Part shown: in pieces, positions 33,831 to 43,354 of the stretch
Layout: each line of letters starts with the position of its first letter
Numbering within the stretch: position 1 is the first letter of the stretch
Assembly: GCA_027214125.1 (NCBI GenBank)
Contig: JAPWHF010000014.1
Coordinates: forward strand, 1-64,000
Reading direction: 5' to 3'
Source of the DNA: Zoogloeaceae bacterium G21618-S1
GTDB lineage: Bacteria; Pseudomonadota; Gammaproteobacteria; Burkholderiales; Rhodocyclaceae
DNA length: 64,000 nucleotides
Translations under genes and position numbers: made by a program
The notes under the pieces: generated by a model
What the model was told of the DNA's origin: nothing
Database searches by the model: none
The model's input: the letters and a program-made list of their open reading frames with translations, nothing else

Positions 33831-33958
33831 ACCTGCGTTTGCAGAATTGGGGCGGTTTTCTGCCCTTTCTTCCGCCCTGATATTGCCCGCTACGATCTGA
33901 TAATGCTCACATCCGCTGCTCCGCGAGGGCAGCTTGTGTGGCCGGATCGGAGAGCGGC

Positions 33959-35101
33959 GTGGCCGAAGAGAGTGATCTCGAGAAGACAGAAGAGGCGACA
34001 CCACGACGCCTGGAGCAAGCGCGCGAGGAGGGGCAGGTCCCTCAGTCGCGCGAGCTGTCGACTTTTCTGGTCATGATGGCGGGTGTTGCTGGTTTGTGGG
34101 TGATGGGGCAGTGGGTGGCGGGGCGCATTGTCGCGCTGGTCAAGGGGGGCTTGAGCTTTGAGCGCGATCTGGCCATTGATCCGGTGTTGATGGTGGCAAA
34201 CTTGCGCGATGTGCTGGCCGAGGCGGTGCTGACGGTTGCGCCGGTGTTTGCGGTGCTGATGGTCGCGGCGGTTGCGGCGCCCATTTTGATGGGCGGCATG
34301 GTGTTTTCGCCGAAGGCCTTGCAGTTCAAGTTCGAACGCATGGACCCGCTGAAGGGGCTGGCCAAGATGTTTTCCGTGCATGGCGCGGCGGAGCTGGTCA
34401 AGGCCTTGCTGAAGGCTTTTCTGGTTGGCGGCGTGGGCGCGTGGGCAATCTGGCGCGAGAAGGATCAGATGCTGGCCTTGATGTCTCAGCCGCTGGCGGC
34501 GAGCCTCAACGATTTTGCGCAAATCGTGCTTTTCTCCGCATTGCTGGTGGTGTCCAGCCTGGCCTTGCTGGCCGTGCTCGATGTGCCTTTCCAGTTGTGG
34601 CAATACCACGACAAACTGAAGATGACGAAAGAGCAGGTTCGCCAGGAGAACAAGGAATCCGAAGGCGATCCTCAGCTCAAGGCGCGCATCCGCCAGGCGC
34701 AGCGCGAAATGTCGCGTCGCCGGATGATGTCCGAAGTGCCCAAGGCCGATGTGGTGGTGACCAACCCGACGCATTACGCAGTGGCGTTGCGCTATGAGGC
34801 GGGCCGAATGGGCGCGCCGGTGGTGGTGGCCAAAGGGGCGGACCTGACCGCTCAGAAGATTCGTGAAATCGCCGCCGAGCACAATGTGCCGACGCTTGAG
34901 GCCCCGCCGCTGGCGCGGGCGCTGTTCGCGCACTGTGAAATTGACCAGGCGGTGCCGGCGGCGTTGTACACCGCGGTGGCCGAAGTCATGGCCTACGTCT
35001 ATCAACTCAACCATTGGCTGGCCGATGGCGGACAGGTGCCCGAGGTGCCGCAGGCCTTGCCCGTGCCCGCCGACATGGACCCCGGCGCAGGCCGCGCCTG
35101 A
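33959..35101 (+). CDS. flhB: Flagellar export apparatus protein FlhB
   Basis: A 380-residue inner-membrane protein of the flagellar type III export gate. The N-terminus is MAEESDLEKTEEATPRRLEQ, and four membrane segments follow (about 30-215). The cytoplasmic domain contains the autocleavage motif NPTH near residue 268, which switches export from rod/hook to filament substrates. The start is GTG 33959, preceded by GGAGAG and giving the canonical N-terminus; GTG 33938 is unlikely. flhA follows after 28 bases. Confidence 0.97.
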   Translation: MAEESDLEKTEEATPRRLEQAREEGQVPQSRELSTFLVMMAGVAGLWVMGQWVAGRIVALVKGGLSFERDLAIDPVLMVANLRDVLAEAVLTVAPVFAVLMVAAVAAPILMGGMVFSPKALQFKFERMDPLKGLAKMFSVHGAAELVKALLKAFLVGGVGAWAIWREKDQMLALMSQPLAASLNDFAQIVLFSALLVVSSLALLAVLDVPFQLWQYHDKLKMTKEQVRQENKESEGDPQLKARIRQAQREMSRRRMMSEVPKADVVVTNPTHYAVALRYEAGRMGAPVVVAKGADLTAQKIREIAAEHNVPTLEAPPLARALFAHCEIDQAVPAALYTAVAEVMAYVYQLNHWLADGGQVPEVPQALPVPADMDPGAGRA

Positions 35102-35129
35102 TGCTGAACCTCACTGAATACGCCCACTC

Positions 35130-37232
35130 ATGAACGCCGTGACCCTCCGTTCCCTGATGTCTCCGACGGCGCTGCGGCAACTGGCCGCGCCGATGCTGAT
35201 CATCATGATCCTGGCGATGATGGTGTTGCCGCTGCCGGCGTTTGCGCTGGACGTGTTCTTCACCTTCAATATTTCGCTGTCGGTGATGGTGATGCTGGTG
35301 GCCATGTACGCCAATCGGCCGCTCGACTTCTCGGTGTTTCCGACGGTCTTGCTGCTGACTACATTGCTGCGCTTGAGCCTCAACGTCGCCTCGACGCGGA
35401 TCGTGCTGCTCGAAGGTCATGGCGGGTCGGACGCCGCCGGCAAGGTGATCGAAGCCTTCGGCCACTTCCTGGTGGGCGGCAACACGGCGGTCGGTCTGGT
35501 GGTGTTCACCATCCTGACGGTGATTAACTTCGTGGTGATCACCAAGGGCGCGGGGCGGATCGCGGAGGTGAGTGCACGCTTTACCCTGGACGCGATGCCC
35601 GGCAAGCAGATGGCCATCGATGCCGACCTCAACGCCGGCCTCATCGATGACAAGGAAGCCAAGCGCCGTCGTCGCGAGATCGCGCAGGAATCGGACTTCT
35701 ACGGCGCCATGGACGGTGCGTCCAAGTTTGTACGCGGTGATGCGGTCGCCGGCATTCTGATTCTGTTGATCAACATTGCCGGCGGTCTGGTGGTGGGGGT
35801 CATGCAGCACGACATGGCGCTGTCGCAGGCCGCCGAGATCTACACCTTGCTGACCATTGGTGATGGTCTGGTGGCACAGATTCCGTCGCTGATCATTTCC
35901 GTGGCGGCCGGTCTGGTGGTGGCCCGAGTCGGCGACGAGGGACAGATCAGCGGGCAGGTGGTGCGCCAGGTCTTCTCCAATCCGCAGGTATTGATGCTCA
36001 CCGCGGCGATTCTCGGCGTGCTCGGCCTGATTCCCGGCATGCCCAATCTGGTGTTCATTCTGCTCGCCTCCTTGTTTGGCTGGCTGGCCTGGTGGCGGCA
36101 ATCGAACCCGATAGATGGGCCGGAAGACGAGGAGGCAATGAAGATGCCGTCTCAGGCCGAGATCGCGGCCGCCACCGAGCAGTCGCAGGAAGCGAGCTGG
36201 GCCGATGTGTCGCCGGTCGATGTGCTGGGCCTTGAGGTCGGTTACCGGTTGATCCCGATGGTCGACAAATCGCAGGATGGCGAGCTGCTCAAGCGCATTC
36301 GCGGCCTGCGCAAGAAATTTGCGCAGGATGTCGGCTTCCTGGCGGCGCCGGTGCATATTCGCGACAATCTGGAGCTCAAGCCCAACGCCTATCGCATCGC
36401 ACTCAAAGGCGTGGAGATCGGGAGCGGCGAGGCGTATCCGGGGCAGTTTCTGGCGATCAATCCGGGGCGGGTGACTGGCCCCTTGTCGGGTCGCGAAACC
36501 AAAGACCCGGCCTTCGGGCTGCCCGCGTTCTGGGTCGATGCCGGTCAGCGCGAGCAGGCGCATGCGTTGGGCTACACCGTAGTCGATGGCAGCACGGTGG
36601 TGGCGACGCATTTGAATCACCTCATCCTCGAACACGCCGCCGAGTTGCTTGGCCGGCAGGAAACCCAGTCGCTACTCGATCACATCGGCCGCGACTCGCC
36701 CAAACTGATCGAAGATCTCGTGCCCAAGCAACTGCCGGTGTCCACGGTGCAGCGGGTATTGCAGAACCTGCTCGAAGAAGGCGTCAATATCCGCGACATG
36801 CGCACCATCATCGAGGTGCTGGCCGAACATGCCGCGCGGATTCAGGATCCGCTCGAGCTCACCTCGCGTGTGCGCCAGGCGCTGGGCCGCTCGATCATTC
36901 AGGCGCTGTTCCCGGGTGACTCCGAGGTGCAGGTGATGGCGCTCGATCCGGGGTTGGAACGGGTGCTGATGCAGGCCATTGGTACGGGCGGGCCGGAGGG
37001 CGGCGCGATAGAACCGGGGCTGGCCGACAGTCTGTTGCGTCAGACGGTGTCGCTGGCCCAGCGTCAGGAGAGCATGGGGCTGCCGCCGGTGTTGCTGGTG
37101 CCGGGGCAACTGCGCTGGCTGCTGTCGCGCTTCCTGCGCCGTTCGGTGCCTACGCTCAAGGTGATCGCCAATGCCGAAGTGCCGGAAAACCGCATGATTC
37201 GCGTCGGTGCGACGGTCGGATCTGCCGCTTGA
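35130..37232 (+). CDS. flhA: Flagellar export apparatus protein FlhA
   Basis: A 700-residue export-gate ion channel and substrate platform. It has eight membrane segments in the first ~330 residues (LPAFALDVFFTFNISLSVMVML, TLLRLSLNVASTR). The conserved FHIPEP-family loop includes GAGRIAEVSARFTLDAMPGKQM. A large cytoplasmic domain (about 340-700) docks chaperone-substrate complexes. Length is normal. It follows flhB directly and is ended by a clear terminator, so flhBA form a two-gene unit and flhF starts anew. Confidence 0.97.
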   Translation: MNAVTLRSLMSPTALRQLAAPMLIIMILAMMVLPLPAFALDVFFTFNISLSVMVMLVAMYANRPLDFSVFPTVLLLTTLLRLSLNVASTRIVLLEGHGGSDAAGKVIEAFGHFLVGGNTAVGLVVFTILTVINFVVITKGAGRIAEVSARFTLDAMPGKQMAIDADLNAGLIDDKEAKRRRREIAQESDFYGAMDGASKFVRGDAVAGILILLINIAGGLVVGVMQHDMALSQAAEIYTLLTIGDGLVAQIPSLIISVAAGLVVARVGDEGQISGQVVRQVFSNPQVLMLTAAILGVLGLIPGMPNLVFILLASLFGWLAWWRQSNPIDGPEDEEAMKMPSQAEIAAATEQSQEASWADVSPVDVLGLEVGYRLIPMVDKSQDGELLKRIRGLRKKFAQDVGFLAAPVHIRDNLELKPNAYRIALKGVEIGSGEAYPGQFLAINPGRVTGPLSGRETKDPAFGLPAFWVDAGQREQAHALGYTVVDGSTVVATHLNHLILEHAAELLGRQETQSLLDHIGRDSPKLIEDLVPKQLPVSTVQRVLQNLLEEGVNIRDMRTIIEVLAEHAARIQDPLELTSRVRQALGRSIIQALFPGDSEVQVMALDPGLERVLMQAIGTGGPEGGAIEPGLADSLLRQTVSLAQRQESMGLPPVLLVPGQLRWLLSRFLRRSVPTLKVIANAEVPENRMIRVGATVGSAA

Positions 37233-37264
37233 GCACTCGCTGGAAAAAATGACCGGCAAGAAAT

Positions 37265-37290
37265 AAGGGGGGAGAACCCCCTTTTTCCGG
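37265..37290 (+). terminator. Terminator after flhA
   Basis: Stem AAGGGGG / CCCCCTT around a GAGAA loop, followed by a run of T, 33 bases after the flhA stop. Confidence 0.9.
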
Positions 37291-37314
37291 CGAAGAGGTG
37301 GACGGCGCTCTCCG

Positions 37315-37347
37315 CATAATCGACGCATCAAGAATCGTCCGGACGAT
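37315..37347 (+). promoter_or_regulatory. Candidate flhF promoter and 14-bp palindromic operator
   Basis: CATAAT (37315-37320) could serve as a -10 box, although no good -35 is seen. A perfect 14-base palindrome ATCGTCCGGACGAT follows at 37334-37347, ending 25 bases before the flhF start and downstream of the predicted initiation site. It is well placed for repression. Confidence 0.45.
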
Positions 37348-37372
37348 CGGACCGATGGCTGCGGAGATCACC

Positions 37373-38845
37373 ATGAACGTCAAACGCTATTTTGCCCAGA
37401 CCGCCCGGGAAGCCCTGCGCCAGCTCAAGGAAGAGCTGGGCGCCGAAGCCATCGTGCTGTCGAATCGATCGGTCGACGGTGGCGTCGAGATCGTGGCCTT
37501 GCCGGCGGATGCGGTCGAGTTGCTCCATCAAAGCACCCGCAGCGCGCCGGCCGCCGCCAAACCGGCGTCCGTCAAAGCACCAGCGGCATCGCTCGCCCAT
37601 GACGATGACGAGGGCGAGGGCGACTACCGGGTTCAGTTGTCGTCCGCGCGCCGCCCGTCCGCGCCGGCAGCTCAGCCAACGCGTGCGCCCGCAGCCGCGC
37701 CGGCGCAACAGATTCGCCCGTTTCAGCCGCCACGCCTCGATCGCCCGGTGATGCATCACGAGGTGTTTCCCCGGCATGACGAGATGCGCGCCGCCGAGCC
37801 GCCGCGCACCGCACGCACCGAAGCACCGCGCCAGAGCGCCCCGGCCCCGCGCACAGTGCCGGCCGAGCCGCGCCGCGAAGAAGAGTCGGCCCGCATTCGT
37901 GCCTTGCAGGAAACCAATACCCGTCTGATGGAAGAGATGGGCGGCATTCGCGCCATGCTCGAACGCCAGCTCGCCGGCTTTGCCTGGGGCGAGGCCGGGC
38001 GTCAGGCGCCAGCGCGCAACCGCATGACCGGTGAGTTGCTCGAAGCCGGATTTTCGGCGCAGCTGGCACGCACGCTATGCGATGCCGTTGATCCGAATGC
38101 TGAATTGAGCGCCGCACGCAATGCGGTCAAAACCGCACTCAACCGGGGGCTGCGCGCCTTGTCGAATGATGCCGACGTGATCGACCGTGGCGGTGTGTAC
38201 GCGCTGGTCGGCCCGACCGGCGTGGGCAAGACCACCACCGCCGCCAAGCTCGCCGCGCGTTGCGTGGTGCGCCATGGTGCCGACAAGCTGGCCCTGATCA
38301 CCACCGACGGCTACCGGATCGGCGCACATGAACAACTGCGCATCTATGGCCGCATCCTCGGCGTGCCAGTGCACGTGGTGCGCGATGCCGGCGATCTGCG
38401 CCAGACCCTGGCGGACCTGCGCGACAAGCACATGGTGTTGATCGATACTGTGGGCATGTCGCAGCGCGACCGCATGGTCGGCGAACAGGCGGCCATGCTC
38501 ACCGGTGCCGGCAACGTCAATCGGCTGCTGCTGCTCAACGCCACCTGCCGCGGTGATACGCTCGACGACGTGGTGCGCGCCTACGACGGCCCCGAACTGG
38601 CTGGCTGCATTCTCACCAAGGTCGACGAGGCCGCCTCGCTCGCACCCGCGCTCGACGTCGCGGTGCGTCACGAGATGTCGGTCTACTACGTGGCCAATGG
38701 CCAGCGCGTGCCGGAAGACCTCCACTTGCCTAATCGGGCCTATCTGCTGCATCGCGCGATGAAAGCGGTGGACGAGGGCTCGCCCTACCACCTCAAAGGC
38801 GAAGAGGCGGGGCTGTTGATGGCCTCAGCCGGTGCCGGAGCCTGA
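37373..38845 (+). CDS. flhF: Flagellar biosynthesis GTPase FlhF
   Basis: A 490-residue SRP-type GTPase that determines site and number of polar flagella. The N-domain begins MNVKRYFAQTAREALRQ. A proline/alanine-rich linker (about 60-170) follows. The NG domain has G1 GPTGVGKTTTAAK (about 280-292), ITTDGYRIGAHEQLRIY, G3 DTVGMSQRD and G4 TKVDE. The GTPase motifs look intact. The start follows GGAG. The next gene, one base after the stop, is an FlhG-like partner. Confidence 0.95.
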   Translation: MNVKRYFAQTAREALRQLKEELGAEAIVLSNRSVDGGVEIVALPADAVELLHQSTRSAPAAAKPASVKAPAASLAHDDDEGEGDYRVQLSSARRPSAPAAQPTRAPAAAPAQQIRPFQPPRLDRPVMHHEVFPRHDEMRAAEPPRTARTEAPRQSAPAPRTVPAEPRREEESARIRALQETNTRLMEEMGGIRAMLERQLAGFAWGEAGRQAPARNRMTGELLEAGFSAQLARTLCDAVDPNAELSAARNAVKTALNRGLRALSNDADVIDRGGVYALVGPTGVGKTTTAAKLAARCVVRHGADKLALITTDGYRIGAHEQLRIYGRILGVPVHVVRDAGDLRQTLADLRDKHMVLIDTVGMSQRDRMVGEQAAMLTGAGNVNRLLLLNATCRGDTLDDVVRAYDGPELAGCILTKVDEAASLAPALDVAVRHEMSVYYVANGQRVPEDLHLPNRAYLLHRAMKAVDEGSPYHLKGEEAGLLMASAGAGA

Positions 38846-38846
38846 C

Positions 38847-39635
38847 ATGATTGACGGGCGCGAAGACCAAGCCGCGGGGCTGCGGCGCTTGTTTCGCAAG
38901 GCACCGCCGACGGTTGTTGCGGTGTTCTCCACCGGTCATGTGCCCACCAGAACCGCGGCGCAGGCGATCAGCCGGCTGGGAGGGCAGGCGCATCGCGTGC
39001 TGGTGCTCGATGAAGCGGCCGGCGCGTCCAGTCTGGCCGAGGTGTGGGGGCATGCGCCGGGCGGCGATCTGCTGCATGTGCTTGACGACCGTCAATCGCT
39101 CGACGGCCTGTTGCTGCCGGTGCCCGGTTTGATGGGGCGCCTGCCGACCGCGGCGGTGGCCATGGCGCTGCCGCTGCTCGACGACGAGCGTCGGGCGCAA
39201 CTGCTCACCCATTTACAGTCCTTGCAGCGGCGCACGCGGTTCATGGTCATCCATGCCTCGGTGCAGGCGCTGGACCCGGTGTCGCCCTTTGTGTTTGCCG
39301 CGCCACGCCATCTGGTGCTGGCCGAAGCCAGCGGGCGCGGTGCGACCGAAGCCTATGCCTGCATCAAGGCGTTGGCGGCACAGGGCGCCGGATCCTTGCA
39401 TGTGTCGGTCGCGCGGGCGCGCGATCGCGCCGATGCGCGGGCCTTCTTCGATCGGCTGGCAGATCTGGTGCGCGACAAGGTGGGGATCCCGCTCGCCTGG
39501 GTCGGGCAGGTCGAGCACGATGATCTGGCCGGGCCCTTGTTGCACCACGCAGCTTTACCGCGTGAGGCGGAGGCGGCCTTCTTGCGGCGGCTGCATGGCT
39601 GGCGACACACCGGGGCGTCGGCAACGCGGTCTTAG
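38847..39635 (+). CDS. FlhG/FleN-like protein lacking ATPase motifs
   Basis: A 262-residue protein in the flhG position. Its N-terminus keeps DQAAGLRRLF, the helix by which FlhG stimulates the FlhF GTPase. The deviant Walker A (KGGVGKT in FlhG) is replaced by TGHVPTRT, with no lysine. The Walker B aspartate region reads MVIHAS instead of the usual LIDTAAG. So it looks like a MinD-fold relative that cannot bind ATP in the normal way. ATG 38847 with GGAG upstream is chosen. It is likely coexpressed with flhF, and a terminator separates it from fliA. Confidence 0.7.
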   Translation: MIDGREDQAAGLRRLFRKAPPTVVAVFSTGHVPTRTAAQAISRLGGQAHRVLVLDEAAGASSLAEVWGHAPGGDLLHVLDDRQSLDGLLLPVPGLMGRLPTAAVAMALPLLDDERRAQLLTHLQSLQRRTRFMVIHASVQALDPVSPFVFAAPRHLVLAEASGRGATEAYACIKALAAQGAGSLHVSVARARDRADARAFFDRLADLVRDKVGIPLAWVGQVEHDDLAGPLLHHAALPREAEAAFLRRLHGWRHTGASATRS

Positions 39636-39681
39636 TCCATCGATGGGGTCAGATAAGCTGTTTTTGCGCCATGAAGAGAAT

Positions 39682-39706
39682 AAGGCGGTAAGAAAGCGCC
39701 TTTTTT
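39682..39706 (+). terminator. Terminator after the FlhG-like gene
   Basis: Short stem AAGGCG / CGCCTT with a 9-base loop, then TTTT. It lies about 47 bases after the stop and implies that fliA has its own promoter. Confidence 0.7.
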
Positions 39707-39750
39707 GGAGTGCAGTAAATGGGTAAAGCACGGACAATAGGGCGTATCGG

Positions 39751-39774
39751 GCTTCATGGCGACGGCCATGAAGC
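39751..39774. repeat. Perfect 10-bp inverted repeat in the fliA leader
   Basis: GCTTCATGGC and GCCATGAAGC around a GACG tetraloop, 46 bases before the fliA ATG. It could be an RNA hairpin in the leader or a dyad operator. No T-tract follows, so it is not a terminator. Confidence 0.6.
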
Positions 39775-39820
39775 GAGTCGAGTCCCCGGTCTGGGGCTGC
39801 ACCACTGAACGGGCCACTGC

Positions 39821-40588
39821 ATGTACACCGCATCCGGCACACTTGATCGCGACCAGTTGGTGACGCATTACGCGCCGCTGGTCAAACGCATTGCCTACCA
39901 CTTGATGGCCAAGTTGCCAGCCAGTGTGCAGGTCGATGACATTATTCAGAACGGCATGATCGGGCTGCTCGACGCCATTGGTCGCTACGAAGAGGGCTTG
40001 GGCGCGCAGTTCGAGACCTACGCCGTGCAGCGGATTCGTGGCTCCATGCTTGATGGTTTGCGCGAAAACGACTGGCTACCACGCAGCCTGCGTCGCGACA
40101 TGCGCCGCATCGAGGGGGCGATTCACGAACTGGAGCAGCAGAACGGGCGTCACCCGACCGAGCGAGAACTGGCCGACACCTTGGGCATGGCGCTGGCCGA
40201 GTACCAGAAAATGCTGCAAGACGCCCGCGGTCATCAATTGGTGTATTTCGAAGACTTCACAGACGGCAATGATGACGATTATCTCGAGCGTCATGCGGTC
40301 GGTCATGAAGGCGATCCGCTGGATGCCTTGCTCGATCAGAGCATGCGTGACATTCTCGTGGCCTCCATCGACGATCTACCCGAGCGCGAAAAGATGGTGA
40401 TGGGTCTCTACTACGAGGAAGACCTCAACCTGCGCGAAATTGGCGAGGTTCTCGGCGTGTCCGAGTCACGCGTGTGTCAATTGCACAGCCAGGCCATCGC
40501 CCGCTTGCGCTCCCGGATTCACGGCACCAAAGGCGGCCCCAAGGCACGGCGTGGGCGCCCGCCCAAGAACGCTGCCGACGCGGCCTGA
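39821..40588 (+). CDS. fliA: RNA polymerase sigma factor FliA (sigma-28)
   Basis: A 255-residue flagellar sigma factor. Region 2 is YAPLVKRIAYHLMAKLPASVQVDDIIQNGMIGLLDAIGRYE, with RIRGSMLDGLRENDWLPRSLRR. Region 3 has HPTERELADTLGM. Region 4 is LPEREKMVMGLYYEEDLNLREIGEVLGVSESRVCQLHSQA. It should read the class III genes and is held by FlgM (56243-56539). Two matching sigma-28-type promoters are seen in this window. The C-terminus has a basic tail (KGGPKARRGRPPK) beyond the usual end. Confidence 0.97.
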   Translation: MYTASGTLDRDQLVTHYAPLVKRIAYHLMAKLPASVQVDDIIQNGMIGLLDAIGRYEEGLGAQFETYAVQRIRGSMLDGLRENDWLPRSLRRDMRRIEGAIHELEQQNGRHPTERELADTLGMALAEYQKMLQDARGHQLVYFEDFTDGNDDDYLERHAVGHEGDPLDALLDQSMRDILVASIDDLPEREKMVMGLYYEEDLNLREIGEVLGVSESRVCQLHSQAIARLRSRIHGTKGGPKARRGRPPKNAADAA

Positions 40589-40611: not shown

Positions 40612-41352
40612 ATGGATAGCATCAGCCTGATCGGACTGGTTCTCGGCCTGGCCGCCATTTTGGTGGGGCAGGTGCTCGAGGGCGGGCATATCAGTTCGCT
40701 GGTTCAGCCGACTGCGTTCATGATCGTGATTGGCGGTACGCTCGGTGCCGTCATGCTGCAAAGCCCCTTGCGCGTGTTCACCGACGGCATGCGCATGGCT
40801 AAATGGATTGTCGTGCCGCCTGCGGCAACGCATGGCGAACTGATTGGCCGCGTGGTCGGCTGGAGTCACGTGGCACGCCGTGAAGGTCTGCTGGCGCTGG
40901 AAAATCAGATTGCCGGGGTGGGAGATACCTTTACGCAGAAAGGCATTCAGTTGCTCGTCGATGGTGTGGAGCCCGACCGCCTGCGCGATGTCATGGAGGT
41001 TGAAATCACCGCTTGGGAAAGCCGGATGAAACTCGGTGCCAAGATCTGGGAAGCCGCTGGGGGCTATGCGCCGACCATCGGCATTCTCGGTGCGGTGATG
41101 GGCTTGATTCACGTGATGGAAAACCTCTCCGATCCGTCGAAACTCGGTGCCGGTATTGCGGTGGCCTTTGTGGCAACCATCTACGGCGTGGGCTTCGCCA
41201 ACCTGGTGTTCTTGCCGATGGCCAAGAAGCTGCAGGCACACGTCGCGCGTCTGGTGTCGCTGCGAGAGATGCTGGTCGACGGCCTCGTGGGCATTGCCAA
41301 TGGTGACAATCCGCGCATCATCGAGAGCCGGTTGCAGGGCTACGACGTTTGA
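40612..41352 (+). CDS. motC: Flagellar motor stator protein MotC (MotA family)
   Basis: A 246-residue stator A-subunit with four membrane segments. VIGGTLGAVMLQSP, WEAAGGYAPTIGILGAVMGLIHVMENL and AVAFVATIYGVGFANLVFLPMAKKL are typical of MotA/PomA, with the torque-generating charged residues in the cytoplasmic loop (about 60-165). It pairs with MotD (45213-46082), from which it is separated here by 3.9 kb of other genes. It is coexpressed with fliA, 23 bases upstream, and has a good AGGAGA ribosome site. Confidence 0.95.
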   Translation: MDSISLIGLVLGLAAILVGQVLEGGHISSLVQPTAFMIVIGGTLGAVMLQSPLRVFTDGMRMAKWIVVPPAATHGELIGRVVGWSHVARREGLLALENQIAGVGDTFTQKGIQLLVDGVEPDRLRDVMEVEITAWESRMKLGAKIWEAAGGYAPTIGILGAVMGLIHVMENLSDPSKLGAGIAVAFVATIYGVGFANLVFLPMAKKLQAHVARLVSLREMLVDGLVGIANGDNPRIIESRLQGYDV

Positions 41353-41432
41353 TTCCGGATGCGGCCGGGCCTCGGTCGCATCACGTATTCCGTGTCTCGC
41401 GTCACAAATAATTCATGTGTTTTCCGTGTCAT

Positions 41433-41448
41433 TTCGATAATATTCGAA
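41433..41448. promoter_or_regulatory. ArsR operator overlapping the ars promoter
   Basis: TTCGA-TAATAT-TCGAA is a perfect 5-base-arm dyad, ending two bases before the arsR ATG. GATAAT (41436-41441) within it can be the -10 box, so ArsR binding would block initiation. The transcript would start almost at the ATG, and no ribosome site is present. Confidence 0.7.
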
Positions 41449-41450
41449 TT

Positions 41451-41804
41451 ATGGAAATTAAAGACGCTGCGCAGCTGTTGTCGGCACTCGGGCACGACGC
41501 CCGGCTGAGCATTTTTCGTTTGCTGGTCGAAGCCGGCCCCGCAGGCCTCAACGCGGGCGCTATCAGTGATGCGCTGGCCATGCCGCCGGCGTCGGCATCC
41601 TTTCATCTGGCGCATTTGAGCCGGGTGGGGCTGATCCAGGGGCAGCGGGCGCATCGCTTCATCCACTACTCGGCCAATTTTTCGAGCATGGATGCGCTGA
41701 TCGTCTTTCTGACCCGCAACTGCTGTCAGGGTGAAGCCTGCCTGCCACTGACTGCGGCGTGCGATACCCGAGGCACGCGCCGGGTTCATATGACGGGCGA
41801 TTGA
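41451..41804 (+). CDS. arsR: Arsenic-responsive repressor ArsR
   Basis: A 117-residue winged-helix repressor of the ArsR/SmtB family: AAQLLSALGHDARLSIFRLL, then the recognition helix ASASFHLAHLSRVGLI and wing GQRAHRFIHYS. Arsenite-sensing cysteines are C-terminal (NCCQGEACL), like the CC...C arrangement of the Acidithiobacillus-type ArsR, and not in the DNA-binding helix as in E. coli ArsR. It heads arsR-arsC-ACR3. The operator overlaps its own promoter. ATG 41451 is chosen; no ribosome site precedes it. Confidence 0.93.
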   Translation: MEIKDAAQLLSALGHDARLSIFRLLVEAGPAGLNAGAISDALAMPPASASFHLAHLSRVGLIQGQRAHRFIHYSANFSSMDALIVFLTRNCCQGEACLPLTAACDTRGTRRVHMTGD

Positions 41805-41848
41805 GATCGCAATAACAAACTGAGGTGGGGCAGGGCCCCAGGGACATC

Positions 41849-42262
41849 ATGCCTGACCTGAAAACCGTGCTGGTGCTGTGCACCGGCAACTCCTGCCGCT
41901 CGCAAATGGCCGAGTCGATACTCAACCACGATCTGGCGGGCCGGGTGCGCGCCTTGTCAGCCGGGACCGCGCCGCAGCCCAAGGTGGCCGATGGTGCCAT
42001 CGCGGCGCTGACGCAGGCCGGCCTGCCCACCGAGGGATTGACGCCCAAGGATGTGTCGGCTGTGCTCAACGAGGTCATCGACTTGGTGGTGACGGTGTGT
42101 GACAACGCCAAGGAGAGCTGCCCCATTTTTCCGCGGCCGGTGCCGCGCATCCATGTGCCGTTTCACGATCCGCATGGCGAGCCGCTCGATAGTTTCATCG
42201 CCGTGCGCGACGAGATTCGTGCCCGCCTGCTGCCCCTCGTGCGCGACGCGCTCGATCTTTAA
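41849..42262 (+). CDS. arsC: Arsenate reductase, thioredoxin-coupled type
   Basis: A 137-residue enzyme of the low-molecular-weight phosphatase fold. The active-site loop CTGNSCRSQMAES contains the nucleophilic Cys (about residue 11). TVCDNAKESCP (Cys about 83 and 90) provides the redox shuttle of pI258-type arsenate reductases, which are recycled by thioredoxin. It reduces arsenate to arsenite for export by the next gene. The start at 41849 follows AGGGA; GTG 41825 is less likely. Confidence 0.94.
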   Translation: MPDLKTVLVLCTGNSCRSQMAESILNHDLAGRVRALSAGTAPQPKVADGAIAALTQAGLPTEGLTPKDVSAVLNEVIDLVVTVCDNAKESCPIFPRPVPRIHVPFHDPHGEPLDSFIAVRDEIRARLLPLVRDALDL

Positions 42263-42274
42263 TCGGAGGACGCC

Positions 42275-43354
42275 ATGTCTGCACAATGTGAAGTCACGGC
42301 CAAGGCGATCGCCGGTGCGCCGATCAGTTTTTTTGAACGCTATCTGACGGTTTGGGTGTTTCTGTGCATCTTTGCCGGCATCGCGCTAGGTCAGTTGGCG
42401 CCGGGCGTGTTCCAGGCGCTCGGCCGGCTGGAGATTGCTCAGGTCAACCTGCCGGTGGGCCTGCTGATCTGGGTGATGATCATCCCGATGCTGATGAAGA
42501 TCGACTTCGGCGCGCTGCACGAGGTGCGCGAGCAGAAGCACAGCATGGCCATCACCCTGGTGGTGAATTGGGCGATCAAACCCTTCACCATGGCCGCGCT
42601 GGGCTGGCTGTTCATCCGCCATGTGTTCGCGCCGTGGCTGCCGGCCGATCAGATCGACAGCTATATCGCGGGCTTGATCTTGCTGGGGGCGGCGCCGTGC
42701 ACGGCCATGGTGTTCGTGTGGAGCAACCTGTGCCGGGGCAATGCCAACTTCACGCTGACCCAGGTGGCGCTCAATGATCTGGTGATGGTCTTCGCCTTCG
42801 CGCCCATCGTCGCACTGCTGCTCGGGGTGTCATCCATTCCAGTGCCGTGGGACACGCTCTTCCTGTCGGTGGTGATGTACATCGTCATTCCGCTGGCGAT
42901 CGCGCAGTTCTTCCGCAAGCGCTTGCTCAAGCGCGGCCGGGCGAACTTCGACGCCGCATTGGGGCGGATCGGGCCGTTCTCGATCATGGCCTTGCTGGCC
43001 ACGCTGGTGCTGCTGTTTTCCTTCCAGGGCGGCACCATCGTTGCCCAGCCGGCGATCATCGCTATGCTGGCGGTGCCCATCCTGCTGCAGACCTTGCTGA
43101 TTGCCGGCCTCGGCTACGTACTCAACCAGCGCCTGCGGGTGCGCCATGACGTGGCCGGCCCGTCGACCATGATCGGCGCCTCCAACTTTTTTGAGTTGGC
43201 GGTGGCGGTGGCGATCGTGCTCTACGGTTTCGACTCTGGCGCGGCGCTGGCGACCGTGGTCGGCGTGCTGATCGAGGTGCCGGTAATGCTGTGGCTGGTG
43301 CGGACGGTCAATGCCAGCAAGGGGTGGTACGAGCGGGGGCAGCAGCGCGCCTAA
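42275..43354 (+). CDS. arsB: ACR3-family arsenite efflux permease
   Basis: A 359-residue inner-membrane transporter with ten predicted helices. The family core GAAPCTAMVFVWSNLCRGNANFTL contains the essential cysteine, and TLVLLFSFQGGTIV and MIGASNFFELAVAVAIVLYGFDSGAAL follow. It exports arsenite using the proton motive force. It lies 12 bases after arsC with a GGAGG ribosome site. It converges on the chemoreceptor gene with only 21 bases between the stops and no terminator visible. Confidence 0.95.
   Translation: MSAQCEVTAKAIAGAPISFFERYLTVWVFLCIFAGIALGQLAPGVFQALGRLEIAQVNLPVGLLIWVMIIPMLMKIDFGALHEVREQKHSMAITLVVNWAIKPFTMAALGWLFIRHVFAPWLPADQIDSYIAGLILLGAAPCTAMVFVWSNLCRGNANFTLTQVALNDLVMVFAFAPIVALLLGVSSIPVPWDTLFLSVVMYIVIPLAIAQFFRKRLLKRGRANFDAALGRIGPFSIMALLATLVLLFSFQGGTIVAQPAIIAMLAVPILLQTLLIAGLGYVLNQRLRVRHDVAGPSTMIGASNFFELAVAVAIVLYGFDSGAALATVVGVLIEVPVMLWLVRTVNASKGWYERGQQRA

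Follow-up and report, generated by a model that had tools for sequence, protein, structure and literature searches.

A probable pseudo-ATPase derived from FlhG, encoded beside flhF in a Denitromonas-type bacterium, and recurrent loss of the FlhG P-loop in its order

Results

The flhF-flhG-fliA locus and the encoded FlhG protein

The window analyzed here, a stretch of 64,000 nucleotides from Zoogloeaceae bacterium G21618-S1, carries the flagellar genes flhB, flhA, flhF, flhG, and fliA in this order on its forward strand (33938 to 40588; Table 1). A single base separates the flhF stop codon (TGA, 38843 to 38845) from the flhG start codon (ATG at 38847), and flhG translates into 262 residues plus a stop codon, so that the position and length given in a preliminary description of this DNA hold. 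That description had the protein begin with DQAAGLRRLF; the motif is present, at residues 7 to 16, while the N terminus itself reads MIDGRE. The flhF frame is open from 37298, its start at 37373 having been set with the start of the profile match, and the window FlhF contains the motifs GPTGVGKTT, DTVGM, and TKVDEA. On the 3' side of fliA (40612 to 43354) lies a motA-type stator gene (PRK09109 model) without a motB-type partner frame directly after it, followed by an ArsR-type regulator, an arsC-like frame, and an ACR3 pump. This stretch aligns unbroken in the Denitromonas-type records L067 to L069 and is therefore no insertion private to the window genome.

Table 1. Features of the flagellar locus in the window, with the evidence for each assignment
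Feature	Coordinates	Strand	Evidence
flhB	33938..35101	+	TIGR00328, 4.8e-128
flhA	35130..37232	+	TIGR01398, 3.2e-270
flhF, SRP-type GTPase	37373..38845	+	TIGR03499, 1.6e-80
flhG, FlhG-derived pseudo-ATPase, 262 aa	38847..39635	+	Translation; FleN homology, 1.1e-9; predicted MinD/FlhG fold
N-terminal helix, residues 4-17 (DQAAGLR = 7-13)	38856..38897	+	Predicted model; pN; family motif counts
Former P-loop, residues 28-36 (S-TGHVPTRT)	38928..38954	+	Alignments; pN 0.195 over 22-46
Former switch I DxD, now D55-E56-A57, catalytic Asp gone	39009..39017	+	Alignment and counts
Former Walker B Asp, now His136	39252..39254	+	Alignment
Helix alpha-6, residues 163-178, including K174	39333..39380	+	Model; aligned to Lys177 of Geobacillus FlhG
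fliA, flagellar sigma factor, next gene 3' of flhG	39821..40588	+	FliA model, 9.9e-94

Among the best 80 of 349 relatives from named records, the nearest are Denitromonas ohlonensis and D. halophila (93% identity), and the named relatives belong to Rhodocyclales-type genera. In GTDB, the order of the window genome is Burkholderiales (Betaproteobacteria), and the members of its class outside this order are gammaproteobacteria (gamma genomes below). Another Denitromonas, strain IR-12, has been placed in the Betaproteobacteria (PMC8692401, excerpt).

Profile searches gave the window FlhG no name: Pfam returned no family up to an E value of 1, and NCBIfam only two unrelated weak matches (0.053 and 0.21), the curated ParA/MinD thresholds not being reached. 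A phmmer search against PDB sequences (E up to 1) returned five matches, three to FleN (best 1.1e-9) and two to FlhG, with the homology to FleN spanning residues 20 to 228.

The ATPase site is lost, while the helix and the fold are retained

In the alignment with FleN, the GKGGVGKT motif falls on TGHVPTRT (T29 to T36) of the window FlhG, a stretch shorter by two residues, and MVIHAS lies under the Walker B strand with H136 in place of the Asp. The absence of the deviant Walker A motif KGGVGKT and the replacement of the Walker B Asp, both read from the sequence in the preliminary description, are thereby borne out. A third loss, unmentioned there, concerns the second (catalytic) Asp of switch I, the DxD motif having become DEA (D55-E56-A57). 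Given that the three site features tested (a KGGxGK[ST] Walker A, the catalytic Asp of switch I, and the Walker B Asp) are all absent, the protein fails the ATPase definition; it is an FlhG by descent, position, fold, and helix, and not by its ATPase. The FlhF-activating DQAxxLR helix has indeed been kept, at residues 7 to 13 and within the predicted helix 4-17, and includes Q8, which we take to be the expected co-catalytic glutamine for FlhF.

The structure prediction proposed with the preliminary description returned a MinD/FlhG fold. AlphaFold2, run on 52 aligned sequences, gave a model with a pLDDT of 89.8 and a pTM of 0.86, in which helix 4-17 stands separate from the body. FleN, FlhG, and MinD came top in the fold searches with this model: the best Foldseek match was FleN 5j1j (3.4e-11, TM about 0.6), and the VIA fold search aligned FlhG 4rz2 over 211 residues (Z 19.8, rmsd 2.9) and FleN 5j1j over 214 (Z 19.2, rmsd 3.7). 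These matches rule out a fold unrelated to MinD. The entries 4rz2 and 4rz3 are FlhG of Geobacillus, the name that PMC12327844 uses.

Within the same 52 sequences, G30, D55, E56, and D74 are invariant and H136 is present at 90% or more. The exchange of the lost Walker B Asp for a nearly invariant His in this clade may point to a pocket that has taken on another role; across the family, His occupies the position in 25 of 86 FlhGs.

The gene is intact, under selection, and the only flhG found in the genome

The window genome (4.39 Mb in 66 contigs, 99.99% estimated completeness) was searched for a second, canonical FlhG, and none was found with the window FlhG, with a canonical gamma FlhG, or among CbiA-type loci. 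The window FlhG recovered only itself, the next match having an E value of 0.106; the gamma query recovered MinD (2.2e-15), the window FlhG (6.3e-15), and then other P-loop proteins; and none of the 15 CbiA-type loci, read in six frames, contains DQAxxLR. The MinD of this genome has an intact KGGVGKT motif.

A frameshift hiding a Walker A motif, the error that the preliminary description had considered, did not materialize. In all of the closest 80 of the 349 named-record relatives the frame is open over 258 to 281 amino acids and G-x4-G[KR]-[ST] is absent; as the scan was seeded with the helix and only the nearest 80 were kept, it is uninformative on helix retention and on the collection as a whole. 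Comparing the window with four Denitromonas-type records, we obtained omega values of 0.061 to 0.101 for flhG, 0.070 to 0.130 for flhF, 0.027 to 0.034 for fliA, and 0.027 to 0.084 for flhA, and with untrimmed ends flhG gave 0.064 to 0.115 (three Denitromonas comparisons). Within Denitromonas, flhG is thus constrained like flhF and more weakly than fliA and flhA. Comparisons that include relatives of 71 to 73% identity gave 0.16 to 0.30 for flhG.

Constraint is distributed unevenly along the protein. Over all pairs of eight sequences, with pS near 0.47, the mean pN was 0.010 for residues 1 to 17, 0.195 for 22 to 46, 0.136 for 63 to 130, 0.172 for 131 to 146, 0.111 for 147 to 233, and 0.249 for the tail; of the seven regions, only one has a higher replacement rate than the P-loop segment (22 to 46).

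Erosion of the ATP site extends through the family and most order members sampled

We classified three sets of FlhG proteins on one MAFFT alignment. The first covers the window's family, in which 85 of 101 genomes were matched by the window FlhG and all were taken, together with one very short FlhG found beside flhF (genome G023), giving 86 proteins. This search was independent of the helix, as four of its matches start at residue 145 or later. The combination of signature Lys and GK[ST], looked for in the clade-wide check suggested earlier, occurs in none of the 86. The P-loop reads GK[ST] in 12, GR[ST] in 19, and neither in 55, the last class including four short proteins (mini-FlhGs, see below) and L066, a fragment cut off by the end of its contig; the missing part of this protein, with the helix and a GR-type loop, lies on a second contig (L261). 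DQAxxLR is present in 85/86, the exception being that fragment.

The second set comprises 71 further genomes of the order, two of which (L152 and L170) belong to the window's family but had not been part of the first sample. From the matches listed, we took the best-scoring 25 uncounted genomes and picked 46 by hand across families; in all, 249 genomes gave a match at 1e-6, the weak ones among these being probably MinD-like. Three of the 71 combine the signature Lys with GK[ST] (none has the strict KGG motif); 26 have GK[ST], 7 GR[ST], and 38 neither. All 71 contain DQAxxLR, a count biased upward since the picks were mostly made from matches reaching the N terminus. At the second, catalytic position of DxD, Asp is found in 0/86 proteins of the first set and 3/71 of the second.

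The third set consists of 49 gamma genomes, the best-scoring 29 and 20 of the next 24 out of 123 genomes with a match at 1e-20; the ranking profile was built from members of the window's family only and should therefore not favor canonical sites. All 49 have the full deviant Walker A motif, DxD, and the Walker B Asp, and 44 have the exact DQAxxLR. In the other five (L289, L291, L303, L309, and L310) the ATPase sites are intact, the exact motif is altered, and the Gln is kept in 5/5. Conservation per element reverses between these 49 proteins and the 88 proteins of the order that have neither GK[ST] nor GR[ST] (the four mini-FlhGs and the fragment left out): it is highest in the P-loop (0.99) and lowest in the helix (0.64; alpha-7, 0.66) in the gamma proteins, and highest in the helix (0.69; beta-2, 0.67) and lowest in the P-loop (0.33) in the 88.

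To place these losses on a gene tree, we used a quick IQ-TREE run on 169 proteins, for which the motif columns had been masked. The presence or absence of GK[ST] requires 10 changes if either direction is allowed; with losses only, 15 are needed for GK[ST] and 18 for losing both Lys and Arg. As the deep branches are weak and the window's family does not form one clade, these counts are only rough. P-loop loss is recurrent in the order, and the decay looks stepwise, the signature Lys and the catalytic Asp being gone in nearly all sampled members, the P-loop Lys repeatedly, and the P-loop half last. The loss described earlier is confirmed, and the scope given to it was too narrow: erosion of the site reaches most of the order members sampled and ends in the mini-FlhGs.

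Mini-FlhGs join the helix directly to the C-terminal part

Mini-FlhGs of 117, 117, 100, and 88 amino acids occur in four family genomes from two genera (g20 and g24). In these the P-loop half is deleted, and the helix runs straight into the C-terminal part, which includes alpha-6 and alpha-7. Each gene is flanked by flhF and fliA, and the interval leaves no space for the deleted half. In another genome, G048, we found by eye, and kept outside the counts, a 212-amino-acid FlhG remnant (L258, 2385 to 3023) in which DQAAGLRRW is followed by an Ala/Pro-rich stretch; the flhF upstream of it lies in a long open frame of 780 amino acids.

FlhF scored above the cutoff in 87 family genomes, of which only G065 is without a helix-bearing FlhG gene, and there just 91 bases of contig remain beyond the FlhF match. 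Within the family, FlhG thus occurs where FlhF does.

C-ring contact positions and the C-terminal tail

Residues K177, R207, and F215 are given as the C-ring contacts of Geobacillus FlhG (PMC12327844, excerpt). We mapped these positions by eye via 4rz3, applying the offset of 8 that the alignments imply. The alpha-6 Lys (K174 in the window, Lys177 in Geobacillus) is present in 80/88 members without GK[ST] or GR[ST] and in 4/4 mini-FlhGs. The R207 position varies, and 54/88 carry His, Lys, Gln, or Arg at that of F215.

In the tail, F245, R247, and R248 are nearly invariant among the 52 aligned sequences. Its hydrophobic moment is 0.600 in the clade versus 0.599 in shuffles, as against 0.662 versus 0.556 in the gamma proteins; since the clade value does not exceed the shuffles, membrane binding is unsupported.

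FleQ is rare in the order

In monotrichous species, the transcription factor FleQ/FlrA is also a target of FlhG (PMC12826062, excerpt). At an E value of 1e-8 or better, a cutoff picked after the lists had been inspected, a FleQ domain is found in 38/49 canonical gamma genomes versus 1/300 genomes of the order, and the window genome contains no convincing FleQ (best PF06490 match, 3.5e-4). The association is strong and imperfect: 11 of the 49 gamma genomes lack FleQ at this cutoff (5 of these at 1e-5 too) and are still canonical, which excludes FleQ loss as the sole cause. The absence of FleQ may nevertheless be what allowed the ATP site to be lost. FlhDC as the cause was rejected, because FlhC, found in the window genome, occurs in only 112/300 genomes of the order and leaves the order-wide pattern unexplained.

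Discussion

A nucleotide-independent activator of FlhF

The most economical reading of these sequences would be that activation of FlhF has been separated from the ATP cycle. We regard it as probable that the pseudo-ATPase serves as a nucleotide-independent activator of the FlhF GTPase, with flagellar number governed by dose and timing rather than by an ATP cycle. Because the signature Lys, the P-loop Lys, the catalytic Asp, and the Walker B Asp are gone, an ATP-sandwiched dimer would not be expected in spite of the MinD/FlhG-like fold. Helix 4-17 would bring Gln8 to the FlhF-GTP dimer and return it to the inactive monomer, as the conserved motif and published work on FlhG suggest. The body would act as a carrier and might dock on the C-ring through K174 of alpha-6, a contact that needs no ATP in Geobacillus. 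The number of flagella would then be set by the dose of FlhG and by the moment at which it meets FlhF at the nascent basal body, with no ATP-gated cycle at work on FleQ, at the pole, or at the membrane.

Published experiments bear on this proposal from both sides. According to excerpts of PMC12327844, the binding of FliY by FlhG in Bacillus subtilis is ATP independent; there, the FlhG variant Q8A closely resembles a deletion, whereas the hydrolysis-dead D65A is without discernible effect on hook distribution, from which its authors inferred that stimulation of FlhF is the central function of FlhG. D65A, however, forms a constitutive homodimer, a state that differs from that of the window FlhG. 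For Vibrio alginolyticus, loss of function and hyperflagellation are described with the Walker A substitution K31A, and only a slight effect with D60A (PMC7226244, excerpt); in our assessment, such Walker A mutants argue against a universal rule. Counting one polar flagellum is also not the task of FlhF and FlhG throughout the order, since flhF occurs in the peritrichous betaproteobacterium Bordetella bronchiseptica (PMC7064773, excerpt). Closer to the window, transmission electron microscopy shows one flagellum, at the pole, on Denitromonas sp. IR-12 (PMC8692401, excerpt), and the FlhG of the D. iodatirespirans IR-12 record (L070), which we equate with that strain by the shared name, is 90% identical to the window FlhG and has lost the ATP site as well. 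One polar flagellum is thus compatible with an FlhG not expected to bind ATP, and ATP-driven cycling of FlhG appears unnecessary for it.

Alternative explanations

Several observations from the sequences speak against the favored reading: flhG is less constrained than fliA and flhA, two of the three published C-ring contact positions are poorly conserved, and D55, G30, and H136 are conserved in close relatives, so that the old pocket may hold something. The pocket could have been repurposed to bind a different ligand or partner, His136 and the DE motif contributing to the new site, and both the invariance of G30, D55, E56, and D74 beside H136 at 90% or more (52 sequences) and the His at the Walker B position in 25/86 family members fit this idea; a P-loop segment that ranks second among seven regions in replacement rate (pN 0.195) would be unusual for a ligand site, and we consider this explanation distinctly unlikely. 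The mini-FlhGs of 88, 100, and 117 residues, together with the remnant of G048, raise another, namely that the helix alone matters and the rest is a decaying carrier without a partner of its own, FlhG being on its way to a peptide activator of the GTPase. Against this stand the constraint on the body in Denitromonas and near relatives (pN 0.111 and 0.136 at 147-233 and 63-130, with pS near 0.47) and the C-terminal part with its alpha-6 Lys that all four mini-FlhGs retain, which makes such an outcome unlikely.

An ATP-dependent function could also be supplied in trans by another ATPase such as MinD, e.g., by pairing with the pseudo-FlhG. The window genome does encode a MinD with an intact KGGVGKT, and flagella of Escherichia coli can respond to MinD (PMC12826062, excerpt); homology searches found no positional or sequence link of this kind to flhG, and the mini-FlhGs are without the half that bears the dimer-forming P-loop, so that we hold this to be very improbable. 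That a pseudogene or a sequencing error masks an ordinary FlhG is hardly conceivable: the missing motif is all that favors it, and it is ruled out by the open frames with the same loss in the closest 80 of 349 relatives, from separate assemblies, and by omega values of 0.06 to 0.12 within Denitromonas.

Implications of a dismantled ATP switch

In the current picture, as reviewed in late 2025, FlhG is an ATPase whose ATP-dependent dimer connects flagellar number with the pole, the C-ring, and transcription (PMC12826062, excerpt). Loss of the ATP site beside a retained helix, seen in the window organism and in graded form in most sampled relatives of its order, points to something other than ATP as the counter of flagella here. 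With an order in which most of the sampled members lack the full ATPase site yet retain the FlhF-activating helix, among them a genus in which one strain was observed with a single polar flagellum, it becomes directly testable which activity of FlhG does the counting, and natural variants are at hand in the form of full pseudo-ATPases, GK/GR intermediates, and mini-FlhGs of 88 to 117 residues. An FlhG without an ATP site was unreported among the titles and abstract openings listed from CC-licensed PMC literature, and a remark within the FlhG papers of 2011 to 2016 is possible. A wider proposal would have the ATP switch of betaproteobacterial FlhG dismantled many times, leaving a dose-limited activator of FlhF that provides for one polar flagellum without ATP and has been cut back to the helix and a C-ring-docking segment; as enteric flagella are thought to descend from a betaproteobacterial set (PMC12826062, excerpt), this decay could be the road to E. 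coli and Salmonella, which have neither FlhF nor FlhG. We find the arguments for and against this proposal evenly balanced.

Comparison with known FlhG systems

FleN of Pseudomonas aeruginosa (5j1j, 5jvf, 7ejw, 8p53, and 8pb9) shares fold and homology with the window FlhG, and its gene likewise adjoins flhF, but in the aligned chains it keeps KGGVGKT and Walker B, and it acts on FleQ, whereas all ATP sites are missing from the window protein. In Pseudomonas putida, the order is flhA-flhF-fleN-fliA (PMC6424431, excerpt). FlhG/YlxH of Geobacillus and Bacillus (4rz2 and 4rz3) resembles the window FlhG in fold, DQAxxLR helix, and alpha-6 Lys; unlike the window FlhG, which has no recognizable ATP site, these are ATP-dimerizing ATPases (PMC12327844, excerpt). 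Betaproteobacterial FlhGs with GK[ST] or GR[ST] (e.g., L031, L155, and L026) are a further group, which have the helix and have lost the signature Lys and catalytic Asp as well, but in which a P-loop Lys or Arg, neither being left in the window FlhG, makes nucleotide binding conceivable. The mini-FlhGs (L064, L065, L257, and L210) share with the window FlhG the DQAxxLR helix, the alpha-6 Lys, and the position between flhF and fliA, and differ from it in having dispensed with the P-loop half altogether, at 88 to 117 amino acids.
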